Positions 16,661 to 24,930 of a DNA stretch of 40,928 nt are shown piece after piece; position 1 is the first letter of the stretch, and each line of letters begins with the position of its first letter. Position numbers and translations under genes: made by a program. The DNA comes from an uncultured Lachnospiraceae bacterium (GTDB lineage: Bacteria > Bacillota > Clostridia > Lachnospirales > Lachnospiraceae): positions 1-40,928 of the forward strand of contig CANQPJ010000019.1 of the NCBI GenBank assembly GCA_947625755.1, written 5' to 3'. Under the pieces are notes generated by a model, which worked only from the letters and a program-made list of their open reading frames with translations, made no database searches and was not told where the DNA came from.

Positions 16661-17029
16661 TTATTGATAAATTGCACATTTTCTTGTACTGATTTTTTCC
16701 TGTCTGCCGGTCAGATAAAAAAACTTTTCGGTAACAAGTACGTCCAGCATACCCTCTTTGTAATCTACTCCCATTACTTTTACCTGTATATCTCCGTCAC
16801 TGGAAATAGAAGTACACATATTTTGTATAAATTGTGCTACCATTTCCTTGTCCGATGTAATGTTTGTCTGATTTTGTATCTGGCTGTCTCTGACGGTTTG
16901 TTTTACTGCTGCTGACACTACTCTATCCAATTCATCCTGCCTGTCACTTTTGCTTTCTACACACAACAATATCAGAGATACCAGCATAATTAAAACTGCT
17001 ATTCCTATAACTATAATCGCCTGTTTCAT
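16661..17029 (-). CDS. TadE-like membrane-anchored pseudopilin candidate
   Basis: A 122-residue protein with one N-terminal hydrophobic helix (residues 4-24, IIVIGIAVLIMLVSLILL) followed by a polar extracellular domain. The size and topology fit TadE/TadF-type minor pseudopilins, but similarity is too low to name it. Its ATG overlaps the stop of the beta-helix gene by four bases (ATGA), so translation is coupled. It is the last gene of the Tad-like operon. It could help assemble the filament or hold the beta-helix protein; this is inference. Confidence 0.75.
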   Translation of the reverse strand: MKQAIIVIGIAVLIMLVSLILLCVESKSDRQDELDRVVSAAVKQTVRDSQIQNQTNITSDKEMVAQFIQNMCTSISSDGDIQVKVMGVDYKEGMLDVLVTEKFFYLTGRQEKISTRKCAIYQ

Positions 17030-19551
17030 ATGTCCAACTTTCCAACTACACTTTTATTCATCTGATTATTGATTTTGTAGTTATTCTTTTTTATGTTACT
17101 CTTTATTTCTTTTACCTCACCGCAAGAAATATTTATACTATATACGCTCTTTTCCTTTTCCTTTAAACTCGATATTAATTCATTTTTCAATCCTTTATTC
17201 CACTTTGACGTCCAATCGAGAGTATTGATATATTCATAGGAAATAAATCTTATCTGTCCGTTCGACAGATTGGTGTTTAAAACATACACATACATTTTGG
17301 CGCTTTTCTTAACTTTACTCTCTTCATCTTCTGCTTCAACGGTAACAATATATTGATTAACCTCATCGGTATTCAAATAGCCTTCTGCAGCTATATTATC
17401 TCCTTCGGCAATTTTACCGTGATTTAATTTATCAATTTCCGTTACCCTTAATTCATATTTTTTACCGGTATGTAAATCATCATCTGTAGTAATTTTTTTT
17501 AGTATTTCTTTATTATTTAATATTATCTTTTGGTTTAACACATAATACCTGTCCACTGTATTAATGTATATTTCTTTTATGGTGATTTTCTTCCATATAC
17601 CATATAATGTTACATTGCTGTTTTTCGTGTAAACTGTCCCCGGAGCATAAACACTTCCACTTCCATCCGCCTTACTGTTCCAATGCTTTTTATCCTCTAA
17701 AATATATCCATCTCTTACAATTAAATTTTTACTCAAAGTAATGTTTTCATTCCAGTATTTTTCCTGAATATCCGGTATATTATCCACCTTGTCTGTGGTG
17801 TTTTTGTCATACCGAATTATATATTTTTCACTGATAATAATCCATACTTTGTCATATCCTTCCACATTATCACTGGGTCTAAGCAGTTGATTGCCTGACA
17901 TACTGATACAGCGGTAGCGTTCACTTTTTTTTACATCCGAAGCATACAGCTCTCCACTGCCAGAACCTCCGCTGTAACTGACTTTTACAAGTTTGGTCCC
18001 CGTGGTATTCACCTCGGAATTAATTTTTGCGATGAGACCGGATGCCTTGCTCAATTTACTCATTACTTCTATATAACATCCTTTCGTCAGATACACTTCG
18101 TTATTTTCCTCAATATAGGAATTATCCTTCATTCTTAATATTCCTGCAGCATAAACGCCGCTTCCTTTTCCATTACTCGTGTTATTCCTTACATAGCTGC
18201 TGTTTAACTGAACGATTCCGCTATTGATATAGATTGCTCCACCATTTTTTTTGCTGTCATTTTCTGTGAAAATACTATCTGTTACTACAACAATGCCATC
18301 AGACATTAAGCCTCCGCAATACCCTTCTGTTTTGTTTTTCTGAAAAACACAGTCTGTAATATAAACACTACCGGATTCCATACCTTCTATACCGGAAGGA
18401 ATTTTTACTCCGCCAACTTCCTCTTTACTGCTATTATTAATAATCTGCATATTTTTTAGGAGTATTTTCGAACGATATATACTTCCTTTTGTACCACATG
18501 AAATTCCGCCAACATTCTTCCCTGCATAATTTCCGGATATAGTTCCTCCATAAAAATAACTTGTTCCCCCTTTGTTAGAATTTGTTCCTCCATTGCATCG
18601 GATACCGCCACCGTAAGTTTCTGCTCGGTTATTGGAAATAACCGGTCCGCTTCCATCAGTCTTTCCAATGGTAGTGATTGCTCCCATACCGGTAAAAACT
18701 CCTCCTCCGCTGAGCCCGGCTTTATTATTGCTTATTGTGCCTGCTAAAATTGTACACACGGATTTGCCGCCGGCAAAAATGCCTCCGCCTTCTTCTTTGG
18801 CGGAACAGTTACGAATGACTCCTCCTGCTAAATTAATATTACAGTCAAGCATTCCAAATATGCCTCCACCTTCTGTTTCTGAACTACAGTCATGTATATA
18901 AGCCGTACTGTTGATTAAAATATTTCCTTTCTTCGCCCCAATGGCACCACCATCTGTGCCTTCACAATAACTGATTTCACCATTGACAGTCAGATTTCCC
19001 ATACTAAAAACAGCAGTTCCACCTTCCGTATTTTTATTATTCTTCACATTTGTAAGCAATGTATTTTTATCAATGCTCACTGTAGCATTATCTCCGACAT
19101 ATACAAAGCCGGAACTTTTCTTTTTTCCTGTAAACTTTCCTTTATTTCCACCTAACCTTAATATCTGATTACTGCCATCTTTATAGCCGAAAACAACGTT
19201 GGCGCTTCCATTCACTACAATGCAAAATTTTGGTTCTCCATTGCTGTTGACAGAATCCGAAACATTACCTGAACGTATTATTTTTCTTTCTGCCCCTTTT
19301 GCATATATTCGGAATTTTCCTTTTGGGACAACAATACTTTTTTTAAGCGTAATATTGCTATTTACTGCTATATATTTCCAATTGCTTCCTCCTTTAGCAG
19401 TTAATATCTCTCTAATATCCGATTCCGTGGTCACTATGTATGGTTTCGCTGCGCTTCCGCTTCCTGTATACCCCTGTACAACATGTCGATTGCATATACA
19501 TATCAGGCACATCAGTACAACGATTATAAAATATTTGATTTTACCTTGCAT
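17026..19551 (-). CDS. Large secreted beta-helix protein of the Tad-like operon
   Basis: An 841-residue exported protein. A signal peptide covers about residues 1-27. Residues about 100-490 repeat short strands with GGG turns and Asn ladders (for example GGGIFAGG, LSGGGVFTG, TYGGGIRCN), the pattern of a right-handed parallel beta-helix as in pectate-lyase-fold adhesins. Residues about 577-654 form one Listeria-Bacteroides (InlB B-type) repeat ending in VTLYGIWKK. A Lys-rich C-terminal region follows. No LPXTG anchor or membrane tail is seen. Overlaps with both neighbours (11 nt upstream, 4 nt downstream) tie it to the pilus genes, suggesting a tip adhesin or secreted cargo. Enzymatic activity is not excluded, but no catalytic set is visible. 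Confidence 0.85.
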   Translation of the reverse strand: MQGKIKYFIIVVLMCLICICNRHVVQGYTGSGSAAKPYIVTTESDIREILTAKGGSNWKYIAVNSNITLKKSIVVPKGKFRIYAKGAERKIIRSGNVSDSVNSNGEPKFCIVVNGSANVVFGYKDGSNQILRLGGNKGKFTGKKKSSGFVYVGDNATVSIDKNTLLTNVKNNKNTEGGTAVFSMGNLTVNGEISYCEGTDGGAIGAKKGNILINSTAYIHDCSSETEGGGIFGMLDCNINLAGGVIRNCSAKEEGGGIFAGGKSVCTILAGTISNNKAGLSGGGVFTGMGAITTIGKTDGSGPVISNNRAETYGGGIRCNGGTNSNKGGTSYFYGGTISGNYAGKNVGGISCGTKGSIYRSKILLKNMQIINNSSKEEVGGVKIPSGIEGMESGSVYITDCVFQKNKTEGYCGGLMSDGIVVVTDSIFTENDSKKNGGAIYINSGIVQLNSSYVRNNTSNGKGSGVYAAGILRMKDNSYIEENNEVYLTKGCYIEVMSKLSKASGLIAKINSEVNTTGTKLVKVSYSGGSGSGELYASDVKKSERYRCISMSGNQLLRPSDNVEGYDKVWIIISEKYIIRYDKNTTDKVDNIPDIQEKYWNENITLSKNLIVRDGYILEDKKHWNSKADGSGSVYAPGTVYTKNSNVTLYGIWKKITIKEIYINTVDRYYVLNQKIILNNKEILKKITTDDDLHTGKKYELRVTEIDKLNHGKIAEGDNIAAEGYLNTDEVNQYIVTVEAEDEESKVKKSAKMYVYVLNTNLSNGQIRFISYEYINTLDWTSKWNKGLKNELISSLKEKEKSVYSINISCGEVKEIKSNIKKNNYKINNQMNKSVVGKLDI

Positions 19552-19885
19552 ATCCCTCTATCACCCCCTGTTTATTAAATTTTTCTCCAAACAAGCTAAA
19601 CACGGGAAGTGTCACACTATATTCCAGTGTTATTAATCTGCTGGGCTGCTCATTGTAAATTGTTAAATCCTGCACATTTAATTTATATCCTTTTTCATCT
19701 GCTTCAGATATGCACTGATGAATAACACTATCATTACAATTACTATCTTCTATACGATTGACAGCAACATTGTAAAAATCTCTTGCGTCTGACACTTGGT
19801 TATTACTGCTTATGATAGAAGCAAACAGGATACATCCCAGCGTTATTGCAATAATCATTGAGAACATTTCTATCGCTACTTTCAT
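19541..19885 (-). CDS. TadE-like pseudopilin candidate
   Basis: A 114-residue protein with an N-terminal hydrophobic helix (residues 7-26, MFSMIIAITLGCILFASIIS) and a soluble domain of about 85 residues with two cysteines (SNCNDSVIHQC). The layout resembles TadE/TadF minor pseudopilins. GGAG seven bases before ATG 19885 overlaps the stop region of the upstream gene. Its end overlaps the start of the beta-helix gene by 11 nt. Confidence 0.75.
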   Translation of the reverse strand: MKVAIEMFSMIIAITLGCILFASIISSNNQVSDARDFYNVAVNRIEDSNCNDSVIHQCISEADEKGYKLNVQDLTIYNEQPSRLITLEYSVTLPVFSLFGEKFNKQGVIEGYAR

Positions 19886-19889
19886 ATTT

Positions 19890-20294
19890 TTACTCCACTA
19901 TCACATTTATATATTTTGTACATGCTAACTGATTATCATCCATTACCACACATCTAACTTTGTAAATCCCTTTTTTAAAGGTATCTACTGTTCCATAAAT
20001 TATCACCCGGTCCGTAATGTCTTTTCCATCACAATCCTTTGCTTTTACAAAATCTTTGCAGTTAAAATTTTCTGCTTTATATTGAGCATAGATTATCTCA
20101 TCCACCTCAATTACCGGGTATTTGTCTTTATTTTCTGAAATAAATTTACCATTACTTTTGCTTATATTTGTTTTATATTCCGGAGTCATACTTTTCCATT
20201 TACTTTCACAAACCGAACATATGATAAGAATTACAACAACCCCTATAATGCCATACACCAATGTTTCTCCATGCTCGCCTAACAAATTTTCCAT
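19890..20294 (-). CDS. E-x-G mini-pilin fused to an Ig-like (DUF5011-type) domain
   Basis: A 134-residue protein. The N-terminus MENLLGEHGETLVYG has the same E7-H8-G9 signature as the other small proteins of this operon, followed by a hydrophobic helix (about 12-27). The exported remainder (about 60-134) looks like a DUF5011-type Ig fold: DITDRVIIYGTVDTFKKGIY then YKVRCVVMDDN, as in surface-protein modules with the pattern GDIT...V...VDT..G.Y. It may be a minor or capping subunit. It starts two bases after the stop of the preceding mini-gene, with GGAG overlapping that gene's last codons. Confidence 0.75.
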   Translation of the reverse strand: MENLLGEHGETLVYGIIGVVVILIICSVCESKWKSMTPEYKTNISKSNGKFISENKDKYPVIEVDEIIYAQYKAENFNCKDFVKAKDCDGKDITDRVIIYGTVDTFKKGIYKVRCVVMDDNQLACTKYINVIVE

Positions 20295-20295
20295 A

Positions 20296-20436
20296 TTACT
20301 CTCCTATTATTGAAACTATAGAATAAGCATCCATATTTCCCACAGCAAGAACTACCATAAAAATAATTGTCAGCAAAAAAACAGACACAATTCCACTAAT
20401 CAATACTCCCCCATGTTCAGAAATAAATTCTTCCAT
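20296..20436 (-). CDS. E-x-G mini-pilin, 46 residues
   Basis: A very short gene. The protein begins MEEFISEHGGVLISG, with E7-H8-G9 in the same register as its neighbours. A single hydrophobic helix follows (about residues 11-33), then a 13-residue tail with AYSIVSIIGE. GGAGAG lies five bases before ATG 20436. The stop is one base from the next start. The size and topology resemble Flp-type pilins, but the usual Flp cleavage motif is not evident. It could be the major filament subunit or a small membrane partner of the assembly complex. Confidence 0.75.
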   Translation of the reverse strand: MEEFISEHGGVLISGIVSVFLLTIIFMVVLAVGNMDAYSIVSIIGE

Positions 20437-20447
20437 ATAACTCTCCT

Positions 20448-20552
20448 TTATCCTGTTACAACATTTAAAATTTCATAAAATCCTGCAATTAAGAACAAAA
20501 AGATTATTCCATAAATAATACATTGCCCCAATTCTGATAACAAAAACTTCAA
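20448..20552 (-). CDS. E-x-G mini-protein, 34 residues, TTG start
   Basis: The smallest member of the set: MKFLLSELGQCIIYG, then a hydrophobic helix to about residue 28 and a tail ILNVVTG. Residues 7-9 are E-L-G, matching the E-H-G of the others. Translation probably begins at TTG 20552, with GGAGG six bases upstream, two bases after the stop of the TadB/C-like gene. I see it by position and pattern; its reality rests on the conserved register and tight spacing. Confidence 0.65.
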   Translation of the reverse strand: MKFLLSELGQCIIYGIIFLFLIAGFYEILNVVTG

Positions 20553-20554
20553 CA

Positions 20555-21871
20555 CTAACCTCCATGAATTACATTTGAAATAGATGATGTGAAAACTACA
20601 ATCATAAGTATCATATCAACCATTATTTTTACTACGCCCACTCCCATAGGAACAGCAGTAAACATTGTCGCCGCACCTATCCTGTCATTATTTTTCATTT
20701 CCTCTGCCTGCCTTGTCATTTTATTGTTTCTATCAATAATAGAATGAATCTGTTTTCCGGATTGCTCCTTTCCCAGTTCATGAATAGAATAAAACATTTT
20801 AACAGACGACTTTATATCATCCAGGTCAAACTCCTTTAAAAAATTATCATAAGGTTCTATGCCTACCGGATATTTTTCAAAATCAACTAATAATTTTCTC
20901 ACTGGTCTTTTCAATACAAACGCCAGCTTTTCATAAGAATTTTCTATTGCGGACTGCACCGTCTCATTTTGCAAATTAATCGACACATCCCTAATCCAGT
21001 CAGGAAATACTTTTTTGATTTCATTTTCAAGTGTACGTTTTGCCTTTTTATAAGACATTTTTTCTAAAAATGATAGTGCCTTATAATTTTCATATCCCTT
21101 TTCCACCAGAACATAATATTTGACAATCATATTATCCGGCAGCATTTGTTTTTCCTTAATCCAGTCAATATTCATTTTTTTAATGACAAACAGATAGGAT
21201 ATTAACATGAACATTATCATTACTGTAGAGCATATCTGATACACCGGATGATTGGTATATCTGTATTCCTGCGGAATTAAATATGCCATAAATCCGCATG
21301 TAACCAGTGTTGAAAAAATAGAAATTAATACATTTCTTTTTACTCTGTCAACCTCTTTGATAAATAATGATATTCTGTCACCCCACTGTTTTACATCATT
21401 TAAAAGAATGTCGATATGCTCCTCATAATCTCCACCATGTTCTTCTATTTTAATAAGAAATTCATGCAATGACCTTAATCTCTTACAGTCATATTCCTTT
21501 CCAATAATGTCCAGAGATTCTTTATATATTTTATCTGTCATTTTGGAATCAATATTTACAATAACCTCTTCAATAATTTCCTTCATTCGATTGGAACTGA
21601 CTTTTTGGGCATCCGACAGCGCCAGTCTGATTTTCGGCTGTTTCTTAAATGAATAAATCATTTGTTCCATATACAGAATCACATCATGGAATTTATTTAA
21701 ATATGTAATCCGTTTTGTTTCTTCTTTTTGAAATACAATATTAAAGACTACGGTTGCGATGAAACACGTCAATATGCAAAATATGTTTAATTTATATACC
21801 AGACAGATTATCAGAACCAAAATCATCACTCCGGCAGCATCCTTTAATATGTTTATTATTTTATCTTTCAA
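20555..21871 (-). CDS. TadB/TadC-like (T2SSF-type) inner-membrane assembly protein
   Basis: A 438-residue protein with two hydrophobic segments near the N-terminus (about 13-46), a central pair (about 187-235) and one at the C-terminus (about 405-433). Long cytoplasmic helical regions lie between them. This is the layout of TadB/TadC platform proteins of type IV-like pili. Most Tad loci have separate TadB and TadC; here a single protein seems to serve. Translation starts at TTG 21871, overlapping the ATPase stop by 11 nt, with AGGAG seven bases upstream. It should form the membrane platform on which the ATPase acts. Confidence 0.8.
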   Translation of the reverse strand: MKDKIINILKDAAGVMILVLIICLVYKLNIFCILTCFIATVVFNIVFQKEETKRITYLNKFHDVILYMEQMIYSFKKQPKIRLALSDAQKVSSNRMKEIIEEVIVNIDSKMTDKIYKESLDIIGKEYDCKRLRSLHEFLIKIEEHGGDYEEHIDILLNDVKQWGDRISLFIKEVDRVKRNVLISIFSTLVTCGFMAYLIPQEYRYTNHPVYQICSTVMIMFMLISYLFVIKKMNIDWIKEKQMLPDNMIVKYYVLVEKGYENYKALSFLEKMSYKKAKRTLENEIKKVFPDWIRDVSINLQNETVQSAIENSYEKLAFVLKRPVRKLLVDFEKYPVGIEPYDNFLKEFDLDDIKSSVKMFYSIHELGKEQSGKQIHSIIDRNNKMTRQAEEMKNNDRIGAATMFTAVPMGVGVVKIMVDMILMIVVFTSSISNVIHGG

Positions 21872-22886
21872 TTACACTCTCCTTTACAAAAGGATTATTA
21901 ATCCCCGCCATTCTAAATTTTCTTATAATATCTTTTGGAAGATTTTTTGTTAAAATTTTTCCTTCCTCATAAATCATTACTTTTTCATTTCTTTCTTCAT
22001 TTCTGGACAAACACATGATTTGGGCAATATGCCGTGTGATTTTTTCTCCTTCTTTTACAAAAGATTGTAATAACACTCCAATATCCACAAACGAATAAAC
22101 ATCATTTTCATTAATGTTTTGTCCCATATTTCTTAAACGATCGGGGATTTTACCGGCATCATCCAGATGTATTGTTGTAAGACAATGTACTCCGGCTGAA
22201 ATATTTTCCAACAGATATTTTACCTCCTCTCCTCTGGCTTCTGCCAGCAGTACCCATGTAGGTAATTGTCTTTTACTGGCTTTTAACGCATCTGCGTAAC
22301 CAAAATTTTCACTAACTTTTATTTCCACACAATCTTTATCCGGGTTAATTGCGGCATATCTTAATTCCAGATTATCTTCTATTGTATATACTCTTTCAAA
22401 CGCCGGAATATAATTGGTTAAATATTTTATATATTCTGTCTTTCCCACACCCGGTAACCCGCCTACAATCACGGTGCAGTGTGCTCGTATGGCATTTTCC
22501 ATAAAAGTATCAATCTCCTCCGTGCAATATCTTTCCTGAATTAATCTGTCCCTATTAATTCTTCTGATTGCCGGTGTTTTTCGAATACTAATACTGATTC
22601 CGGTGTTGGTAACAGAATCATGCAGAATTGATATTCGAAGACTATCTGTTTCCGCTTCTAACAGCGGATTATTTTGATTAAACTGCATATTCATCAAATT
22701 ACTTATACGCGTATAAAACTGTTGGATAAAAGTATCATCCAAAACAAAATTTTCTACTTTATATCTGCCTTTCTCCAGATCATTTATCCAAAGTCCGCGG
22801 CTCCAATTAATATCAGTAATATTTTCATCTAAAATATATTTTAATAAATCACCAAAAGCTCTATCCGGTAAAGACAATTTTCTCAT
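21861..22886 (-). CDS. tadA: TadA/CpaF-type secretion ATPase
   Basis: The hexameric ATPase that powers pilus or pseudopilus assembly in Tad systems (GspE/VirB11 superfamily). The 341 residues show Walker A GGLPGVGKT (142-150), the Asp box TIEDNLELR (168-176), a Walker B-like LLAEARGEE (213-221) and the His-box region LTTIH (236-240). It is shorter than typical TadA (about 420 or more), with a reduced N-terminal domain. ATG 22886 is chosen because GGAGAG lies five bases upstream; an in-frame ATG at 22901 has no ribosome site. Confidence 0.9.
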   Translation of the reverse strand: MRKLSLPDRAFGDLLKYILDENITDINWSRGLWINDLEKGRYKVENFVLDDTFIQQFYTRISNLMNMQFNQNNPLLEAETDSLRISILHDSVTNTGISISIRKTPAIRRINRDRLIQERYCTEEIDTFMENAIRAHCTVIVGGLPGVGKTEYIKYLTNYIPAFERVYTIEDNLELRYAAINPDKDCVEIKVSENFGYADALKASKRQLPTWVLLAEARGEEVKYLLENISAGVHCLTTIHLDDAGKIPDRLRNMGQNINENDVYSFVDIGVLLQSFVKEGEKITRHIAQIMCLSRNEERNEKVMIYEEGKILTKNLPKDIIRKFRMAGINNPFVKESVIER

Positions 22887-22948
22887 TAGCACTCTCCCCA
22901 TCTTTTTACTAAAATAATTGTTACTTATAACACAAATACTATTCCTGC

Positions 22949-23131
22949 CTACTTCCCTGTTGGTATCTTGCCGGCAATGGAATCAAATGTAACCGATGAG
23001 GAATAACTATCCACTACATCTTTGACCGCTTCACTGATAATCGGTCCTATAACATACGCCACACCTACGAGCAGTAAAATGCATACTGCAATAAATATGG
23101 TCTTACCATGCTCCTGCAGAAAAACATCCAA
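22949..23131 (-). CDS. E-x-G mini-pilin, 60 residues, first gene of the Tad-like operon
   Basis: The protein starts MDVFLQEHGKTIFIAV: E7-H8-G9, then a hydrophobic helix (about 11-31), an amphipathic stretch ISEAVKDVVDSYSSSV and a short tail. Of the four small proteins it looks most like an Flp pilin in size and helix layout. It uses a TTG start with AGGAGG nine bases upstream. As first gene behind a strong promoter it would be the most abundant product, fitting a major pilin. No prepilin-peptidase gene is found in the window. Confidence 0.75.
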   Translation of the reverse strand: MDVFLQEHGKTIFIAVCILLLVGVAYVIGPIISEAVKDVVDSYSSSVTFDSIAGKIPTGK

Positions 23132-23193
23132 TGGTATCCACCTCCTTATTTATATTCCAAACTTACAACCAAAAGCGGGGATTTTAAAATGTA

Positions 23194-23227
23194 GACATTC
23201 ATAATAGATTTGCCAGCTATGAATGTC
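23194..23227 (-). promoter_or_regulatory. Hairpin in the leader of the Tad-like operon
   Basis: GACATTCATA (23194-23203) is perfectly complementary to TATGAATGTC (23218-23227), with a 14-nt loop. It lies in the 5' leader of about 140 nt between promoter and first gene. I compared it by eye with the c-di-GMP-I riboswitch and did not find that aptamer's conserved parts, so the class is unknown. Confidence 0.6.
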
Positions 23228-23246
23228 ACATATTCATAAACTATAA

Positions 23247-23261
23247 ACATAAACTTTATGT
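23247..23261. promoter_or_regulatory. Palindrome just downstream of the Tad-like operon promoter
   Basis: ACATAAA-C-TTTATGT is a perfect 7+1+7 palindrome. It lies about 13-27 nt after the predicted transcription start and is well placed for a repressor site. Confidence 0.45.
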
Positions 23262-23280
23262 TGTTTTGTTTGGTAAATGA

Positions 23281-23309
23281 ATAATATCACTTTTTGTTTT
23301 TATAGTCAA
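23281..23309 (-). promoter_or_regulatory. Promoter of the Tad-like operon
   Basis: On the minus strand TTGACT (23304-23309) and TATTAT (23281-23286) are exactly 17 nt apart: a strong vegetative promoter. Confidence 0.75.
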
Positions 23310-24323: not shown

Positions 24324-24930
24324 ATGAGAAAATTAAATTTTTTTAATAATAACTGCAATAATAATTGTAATAATTCCAATTCTAATGAAACAGACAATGA
24401 TAATAACTTCTTCACCGATACAGATAATGACTGCTGTGGCAACGCAGATAATGATTGTACATCCTGGTCCTATAGGGCCACAGGGACCACAAGGTCCTGC
24501 TGGAACCGTATTAAGCTTTGCAGATTTTTATGCATTAATGCCACCAGATAATGCATCTACTATTGCACCTGGTGCTGATGTTTCCTTTCCACAAAATGGA
24601 CCTAGCAGTGGTACAGATATTGTTCGAGCTGGAAATAACTCATTTACGCTTGGTCCAATTGGAACTTACCAGATATTATTTGAAGTAGTTGTAAATCAGG
24701 CAGGACAATTACAACTCACGCTCAATGGGGCTCCTTTACCATATACTGTTGTGGGGCGTGCAACCGGTACAACCCAGATTGTTGGTATGTCCCTTATTAC
24801 AACAGACACAGAAAATTCCACCCTGACTGTGCGAAATCCTGCAGATAATTCTGAAGCACTTATTGTAACACCAAATGATGGTGGCACACAGCCGGTTTCC
24901 GCACATCTTACAATTATACAAATTCAGTAA
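24324..24930 (+). pseudogene. BclA-like collagen/exosporium protein, reading frame disrupted
   Basis: Two frames together make one gene. From ATG 24324 the frame gives MRKLNFFNNNCNNNC and further Asn/Asp/Cys-rich sequence up to about 24465, as in spore-surface proteins, and then stops at 24551 in nonsense. The frame one base further on gives a short collagen-like run GPIGPQGPQGPAG and a complete BclA-type C-terminal domain (ADFYALMPPDNASTIAPG... to ...SAHLTIIQIQ), ending at 24930. The switch lies between about 24465 and 24470 and needs a +1 shift (or removal of one base). A T7 tract at 24338-24344 is a second place where loss of one base would open the whole gene. It may be a pseudogene, a phase-variable gene, a frameshift-translated gene or a sequence error. 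BclA-type proteins form trimeric filaments on the exosporium. Confidence 0.8.

Follow-up and report, generated by a model that had tools for sequence, protein, structure and literature searches.

How might a pilus-like machine assemble subunits that carry no cleavable leader? This question is raised by a nine-gene operon on contig CANQPJ010000019.1 of an uncultured Lachnospiraceae bacterium (GCA_947625755.1; 2.25 Mb, 99.5% complete); the window analyzed here is this whole contig of 40,928 nucleotides. Type 4 filaments are described as sharing a core of four universally conserved parts, that is, pilins, a prepilin peptidase, an extension ATPase and a platform protein (PMC10790768), and leader processing as a step preceding pilin assembly (PMC10191384). 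The operon holds an extension-type ATPase, one platform-like protein, four tiny single-helix proteins with a common E7-x-G9 motif (mini-1 to mini-4, or minis), two further small subunits (S1 and S2) and a large secreted protein, and its six small subunits lack the class III prepilin signal. By our estimate, the chances are even that these genes encode a diverged, minimal Tad-like (type IV filament) machine, with subunits devoid of a cleavable class III leader and with the secreted partner on display. A literature search found no account of such a system. All nine genes lie on the minus strand and run in one direction from 23131 down to 16661, the whole set being present, in the following order:

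22949..23131, minus strand: mini-1, 60 amino acids (aa), starting MDVFLQEHG; Flp-sized, putative major subunit; TTG start behind AAGGAGGTG
21861..22901, minus strand: T2SSE-family assembly ATPase (PF00437, 4e-18)
20555..21871, minus strand: membrane platform protein with two helical T2SSF-like repeats (AlphaFold2 (AF2) model and domain matches)
20448..20552, minus strand: mini-2, 34 aa, starting MKFLLSELG; nearly all membrane helix
20296..20436, minus strand: mini-3, 46 aa, starting MEEFISEHG
19890..20294, minus strand: mini-4, 134 aa, starting MENLLGEHG; predicted C-terminal immunoglobulin-like (Ig-like) surface domain
19541..19885, minus strand: subunit S1, 114 aa, starting MKVAIE; helix at residues 2-47, then a small beta sheet
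17026..19551, minus strand: large secreted protein, 841 aa, with a signal-peptide-like start and weak List_Bact_rpt and PMP-repeat matches
16661..17029, minus strand: subunit S2, 122 aa, starting MKQAII; no Glu near +5

The ATPase may instead start at an internal ATG at 22886. For mini-2, the TTG at 20552 was preferred to the preceding GTG because it lies 6 nt after GGAGG and is replaced by ATG in close relatives. The Ig-like domain of mini-4 matches PF16403 at 6.8e-6 with 26.5 bits, against a cut-off of 27.

The first-pass annotation, made from the letters of the window, had pointed to four tiny open reading frames (ORFs) with E7-x-G9 beside an ATPase and a platform-like protein, and had held the shared register not to be chance. 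Both observations were borne out. The window offers 1355 possible starts that are followed by 28 aa or more; E7 and G9 occur together after eight of them, and four of these eight belong to the mini genes. The annotation had also made its proposal depend on conservation of the motif in related operons. A profile search returned 197 hits, from which we removed 12 non-minis (ten S2, one S1 and one unrelated lipoprotein-like ORF), leaving 185 mini-proteins across 55 loci, with four minis in 30 loci, three in 16, two in 4, one in 4 and five in 1. The motif, written as [DEQN]7-x-[GS]9, is kept at the exact distance from the start in 175 of the 185 (169 with the start chosen by its Shine-Dalgarno site and 6 with another in-frame start), and strict E7-x-G9 with the Shine-Dalgarno-chosen start in 139. 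Eight of the remaining 10 keep the spacing with another residue at position 7 or 9, and two are off with the chosen start; 16 of the 197 raw hits have no Shine-Dalgarno site by the rule used. These counts lean towards the motif, as the seed profile consisted of 14 sequences chosen for bearing it; no distance from the start codon was prescribed, although every seed did start at its own Met. Among the 169 motif-bearing minis, 141 have E at position 7; position 8 is taken by Y in 85 minis and by H in 53, and position 9 by G in 166 and by S in the other 3. Distant members read E-Y-G, like E5-Y6-G7 of Tad/Flp pilins.

Residues 2-13 of mini-1 are identical in 13 closely related genomes, and 11 of the 12 codons nevertheless vary; invariant residues with changing codons argue for translation of mini-1. 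Two loci depart from the usual mini complement. In L076, the only such case in 56 loci, the ATPase and both S subunits are present and no mini was found, and L080 carries two tandem mini-1 copies, 455 and 229 bases before the ATPase, that are identical over the displayed residues.

The ATPase matches the T2SSE extension ATPase family well (PF00437, 65.6 bits for a cut-off of 24.9), which is as far as its earlier label of 'TadA-type' stands: the 53 sequences of its clade separate from 7 TadA sequences with a support of 100/100 and an identity of 27-29%. It reaches 67.4 of the 373 bits required by the TadA model TIGR03819, and 93.3 of 250 bits for the VirB11 model TIGR02788, its best score among NCBIfam models. 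The AF2 model of the platform protein has a mean pLDDT (predicted local distance difference test) of 92.2 and matches EpsF/OutF/PilC domains; PF00482 was detected in 5 of 40 platform members (E<=0.1). The ATPase profile matched 20 of 23 genomes of the same genus (E<=1e-60), 38 of 299 sampled genomes of the family (E<=1e-30) and, among 398 sampled genomes of the phylum, only the window's own (E<=1e-35); one more distant operon locus, L030, is labelled Erysipelotrichaceae. One of the 38 family matches, in genome G077, is a canonical TadA (L099) and was left out of the operon counts, and the hits in G061 and G291 sit at contig edges. Gene content was counted in 48 uncut loci, 8 of the 56 having been dropped as cut or short. 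All 48 have S1 and 47 have S2; a mini lies upstream of the ATPase in 44, and one lies downstream in 47.

To score the class III signal, we combined the PilFind motif [GAS]-x4-[DE] (PMC3244431) with a stretch of 14 uncharged residues, a length chosen here. Over the full length, 3 of 185 minis carry this signal versus 17 of 18 ordinary Flps, and within the first 40 residues 1 of 185 versus 13 of 18. It is absent from all 53 S1 and all 51 S2 proteins and from all six subunits of the window, which thus do not qualify as type 4 filament pilins by this signal. The leaders of the 18 ordinary Flps, with starts chosen here, range from 11 to 30 residues (14 residues in 9 of 18); by contrast, G9 follows Met1 at one constant distance in 175 of the 185 minis. 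This genome also has two ordinary Tad loci, each with a peptidase, and the Flp and TadE-type proteins of these loci show leaders ending in G.

S1 and S2 had been called TadE-like, a label that did not survive for S1, as none of its 53 members matches PF07811 (E<=0.1); S2, of which only the window's protein was scanned, gave no match either. S1 was found in 53 loci (mean pLDDT of the AF2 model, 88.9). With the chosen starts, its residue 6 is E or K in 44 of 53 rows, and several of the nine others reflect the start rule picking an inner codon. S2 mostly starts with MK or MR followed by hydrophobic residues.

The annotation had further described the motif as unlike that of known Flp pilins. This part of its overall interpretation found no support, whereas the compact, conserved Tad-like set, the four matching small proteins and the secreted partner did. 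Distant mini-1s resemble mature Flp pilins, for example MKTFMEEYGVIIVAAIVIMIIVVAATPLGNSIRDG, and a search with this sequence against all PDB sequences returned the Tad pilin PilA first (8u1k, E=0.0032) and another Flp pilin second (E=0.066), so that the top two of three hits were Tad/Flp pilins. The PDB alignment places EYG on E5-Y6-G7, as do three of the four weak PF04964 (Flp_Fap) alignments obtained from seven minis scanned. A mini-1 profile of 52 rows matched an ordinary Flp profile of 18 rows with a probability of 83 (E 8.7e-6). The downstream minis matched mini-1 (probability 97, E 4.5e-11) and gave no significant match to the ordinary Flp profile or Flp1_like. Homology of mini-1 to Flp therefore appears fairly well supported, with a register that these alignments do not fix. 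If G9 were position -1, +1 would fall on residue 10, which is charged in 38% of minis, and +5 on residue 14, which is acidic in 3%. In either register, the minis fall short of a classical pilin. We do not class the system as a Tad pilus, although it would work like one, because it fails the class III signal test and has no linked peptidase.

The reported lack of a prepilin peptidase was right for the operon, where none was matched; the genome has three elsewhere. The lack of a secretin stood: none was matched among the nine genes, nor was TadV; the models used did not include TadZ and RcpC. In a monoderm, no secretin is expected. Judged by contig and position, Peptidase_A24 is near the operon in 0 of 53 genomes (the genome's own, 16 and 36 others, G077 being excluded). 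In G007, G120, G154 and G298 operon and peptidase share a contig and lie more than 600 kb apart; some of the other contigs are short, and a contig break between the two is possible there. In G298, which is a single contig, the sole peptidase belongs to an ordinary Tad locus. In G007 (96% complete) and G008 (76%), a T2SSE search at E<=1e-8 returned the operon ATPase and nothing else, and a search for ordinary Flps at E<=0.001 gave no hit. Orphan single-domain peptidases without a nearby pilus ATPase occur at L014 (G000:C1:264412), L105, L106 and L108; those of L105 and L106 adjoin genes resembling ilvC and leuC, and that of L014 adjoins a leuC-like gene.

Based on these genes, we infer the following sequence of events. 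Mini-1 would be the main subunit, inserted with a short N-terminus in the cytoplasm, so that E/Q7-Y/H8-G9 would sit at the membrane face of a helix of about 19 residues (11-29). There, this motif could act as E5-Y6-G7 does in Flp pilins, by docking each subunit onto the platform and onto its neighbour. The ATPase would drive the two-repeat platform, so that subunits would be lifted out of the membrane and join a short filament or pseudopilus. Minis 2-4 together with S1 and S2 could serve as minor or starter subunits, with mini-4 exposing its Ig-like domain, and minor subunits may retain the large Sec-type secreted protein, which would act as an adhesin at the tip or surface. PilY1 offers a parallel for an adhesin held in this way. 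A stronger form of the proposal, which we regard as possible but short of probable, is that the machine never uses a prepilin peptidase: the four minis and two S subunits would be translated ready for assembly and keep Met1, with E7-Y/H8-G9 replacing the free N-terminus and Glu5.

The candidate adhesin itself is variable. A crude rule, under which some unrelated ORFs also pass, finds a large signal-peptide-like ORF in 34 of the 48 uncut loci. The supposed InlB-type repeat of the large protein (PF09479) scores 19.8 bits in the window, short of the Pfam cut-off of 27, and exceeds this cut-off in three of six relatives scanned; likewise, the supposed beta-helix was not matched as such in the window, which gave only a weak PMP repeat, and appears as PF13229 in two of the six. 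Altogether, List_Bact_rpt occurs in three of these six partners, ChW plus beta helix in two and a PMP repeat in one. Of the List_Bact_rpt partners, that of L063 also has a thioester domain (PF08341) and that of L077 a subtilase domain (PF00082). To go by these domain matches, the large secreted partner differs widely between species.

Several observations weigh against a leaderless, Tad-like machine. The system is known here from genes alone, and no filament has been seen. A search with the S1 model gave no solved pilin among the 50 matches listed, and all Pfam pilin-family matches of minis fall below the curated cut-offs: the best scores, from distant members, are 16.0 of 32.2 bits for PF04964 and 14.4 of 33.5 bits for PF16982, and the window's own minis match neither model at E<=1. 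The fourth PF04964 match, from L064, follows neither register. The profile alignment of mini-1 and Flp sets the mini N-terminus on the leader end rather than on E5, and PF16982 (Flp1_like), aligned to one mini, puts it on or near the leader end. In the favoured register, residue 6 would be +4, and it is charged in 93 of 169 minis, unlike the uncharged +1 to +4 of the class III motif. If the hydrophobic stretch is not required, 33 of 185 minis show the bare motif within 40 residues; two of the six window subunits carry it as well. The near-invariance of G9 fits cleavage in trans. Finally, a peptidase is encoded elsewhere in every operon genome (16/16 and 37/37, and 23/23 within the genus), and G007 and G008 keep a full-length orphan one, beside ilvC-like and leuC-like genes.

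These last points favour the alternative that survives best, although we consider it rather unlikely: M-x5-E-[YH]-G would be a very short leader that a peptidase from elsewhere in the genome removes by cutting after G9, and the product a usual Tad-like pilus of subunits without Glu5. Glycine or, rarely, serine at residue 9 is what is expected at -1, the first residues of minis resemble ordinary leader ends such as KEILNDESG, and the PF16982 and Flp profile alignments both lean this way. There is also a precedent, as PMC6668835 describes all MSH loci as lacking a peptidase and possibly using that of another system. The strongest point for processing in trans is the orphan peptidase kept in G007 and G008, where no other pilus ATPase was found. 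However, the presence of a peptidase is uninformative in itself because 295 of 299 genomes of the family have one. Cleavage after G9 would moreover leave the conserved E7, Y/H8 and exact length unexplained, and S1 and S2 show no class III motif. We thus side only in part with the annotation, which had proposed a recognition or processing signal: processing is possible, yet not favoured, given a class III motif missing in 182 of 185 minis and in S1 and S2, and an acidic +5 in 3%.

Somewhat less likely still is a system without any filament, in which the ATPase would join the platform and the single-helix proteins in a complex within the membrane, serving to export or anchor the large protein in the manner of a type II secretion piston. 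Mini-2 is hardly more than a helix, the best NCBIfam score of the ATPase is to VirB11 (93 bits, cut-off 250) and the large ORF, by the crude rule, is frequent, but mini-1 has the size of Flp and similarity to it, a Sec-secreted protein in a monoderm needs no second export step, and the large partner is not found in all loci and differs in its domains. That the small ORFs are untranslated, or that the motif reflects shared ancestry without function, is scarcely credible: ORFs of 34 and 46 codons are often spurious in general, but here mini-1 keeps residues 2-13 across 13 genomes through synonymous codon changes, most minis have Shine-Dalgarno sites and four paralogues hold one motif across 55 loci.

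The leaderless, Tad-like machine that we favour shares with the Tad/Flp pilus (type IVc; TadA-TadB-TadC-TadV-Flp1) a T2SSE ATPase, a probable T2SSF-like platform, Flp-sized E-Y-G helix proteins of about 60 aa, minor single-helix subunits and a large surface partner. It differs in the rarity of the class III motif, the lack of a linked TadV, the several EYG paralogues, the separate ATPase clade and a single platform protein in place of TadB plus TadC. The PilA-CpaF Tad system is that of Caulobacter, and MSH pilins have ordinary leaders. MSH loci resemble the operon in having no prepilin peptidase, but derive from type IVa pili, unlike the operon (PMC6668835). Gram-positive tad-like loci without any prepilin motif are described by Imam et al. 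2011 (PMC3244431); they are similar as pilus ATPase loci without a recognizable prepilin signal, but contain tadV, tadZ and rcpC homologues, whereas no tadV is linked here. The Com pilus (type IVd), a minimal type 4 filament, likewise has a minimal core and several minor pilins, but its pilins are cleaved by ComC, whereas the subunits here lack the class III motif (PMC10790768). FlaF and FlaG of the archaellum are single-helix membrane proteins beside a type IV-like motor, and the Ig-like soluble domain of FlaF recalls mini-4; they are archaeal, however, and this FlaF domain interacts with the S-layer (PMC4307647).

If the machine indeed never uses a prepilin peptidase, the textbook rule of leader cleavage before assembly would gain an exception that is spread through a family of gut bacteria. 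A conserved leaderless Tad-like machine would make the need for cleavage, and for a free amine pairing with Glu5, directly testable. The data also suggest that pilin finders relying on the class III motif can overlook a surface system of Lachnospiraceae; gene callers that pass over ORFs of 34 codons may do so as well.

Two further features lie upstream of mini-1:

23281..23309, minus strand: promoter-like site before mini-1, TTGACT-17-TATTAT with an extended -10
23194..23227, minus strand: inverted repeat in the mini-1 5' leader, with 10-bp arms and a 14-nt loop

Promoter-like sites of this kind are as frequent in the region as expected by chance (34 found versus 34.7), and relatives show comparable TTGAC and GTGATAATATT-like boxes ahead of mini-1. 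The stem-loop was compared with the mini-1 leaders of L015-L017: its loop side AGCTGGC..TCTATT does not vary in four sequences, whereas its arms do; the arms are 10 bp long in the window and 9 bp and still pairing in L015, and the L017 leader has no exact arms of 8 bp. The element gave no Rfam match and may be a regulatory RNA. The operon is flanked by what we take, from sequence, to be a BirA-like gene on one side and an endonuclease III-like gene on the other. Further along the window, at 24324-24930 on the plus strand, we noted a collagen-like ORF whose C-terminal domain is of the BclA type (PF18573, 39 bits for a cut-off of 38); the Asn/Asp-rich stretch preceding it, at 24324-24551, belongs to another frame.

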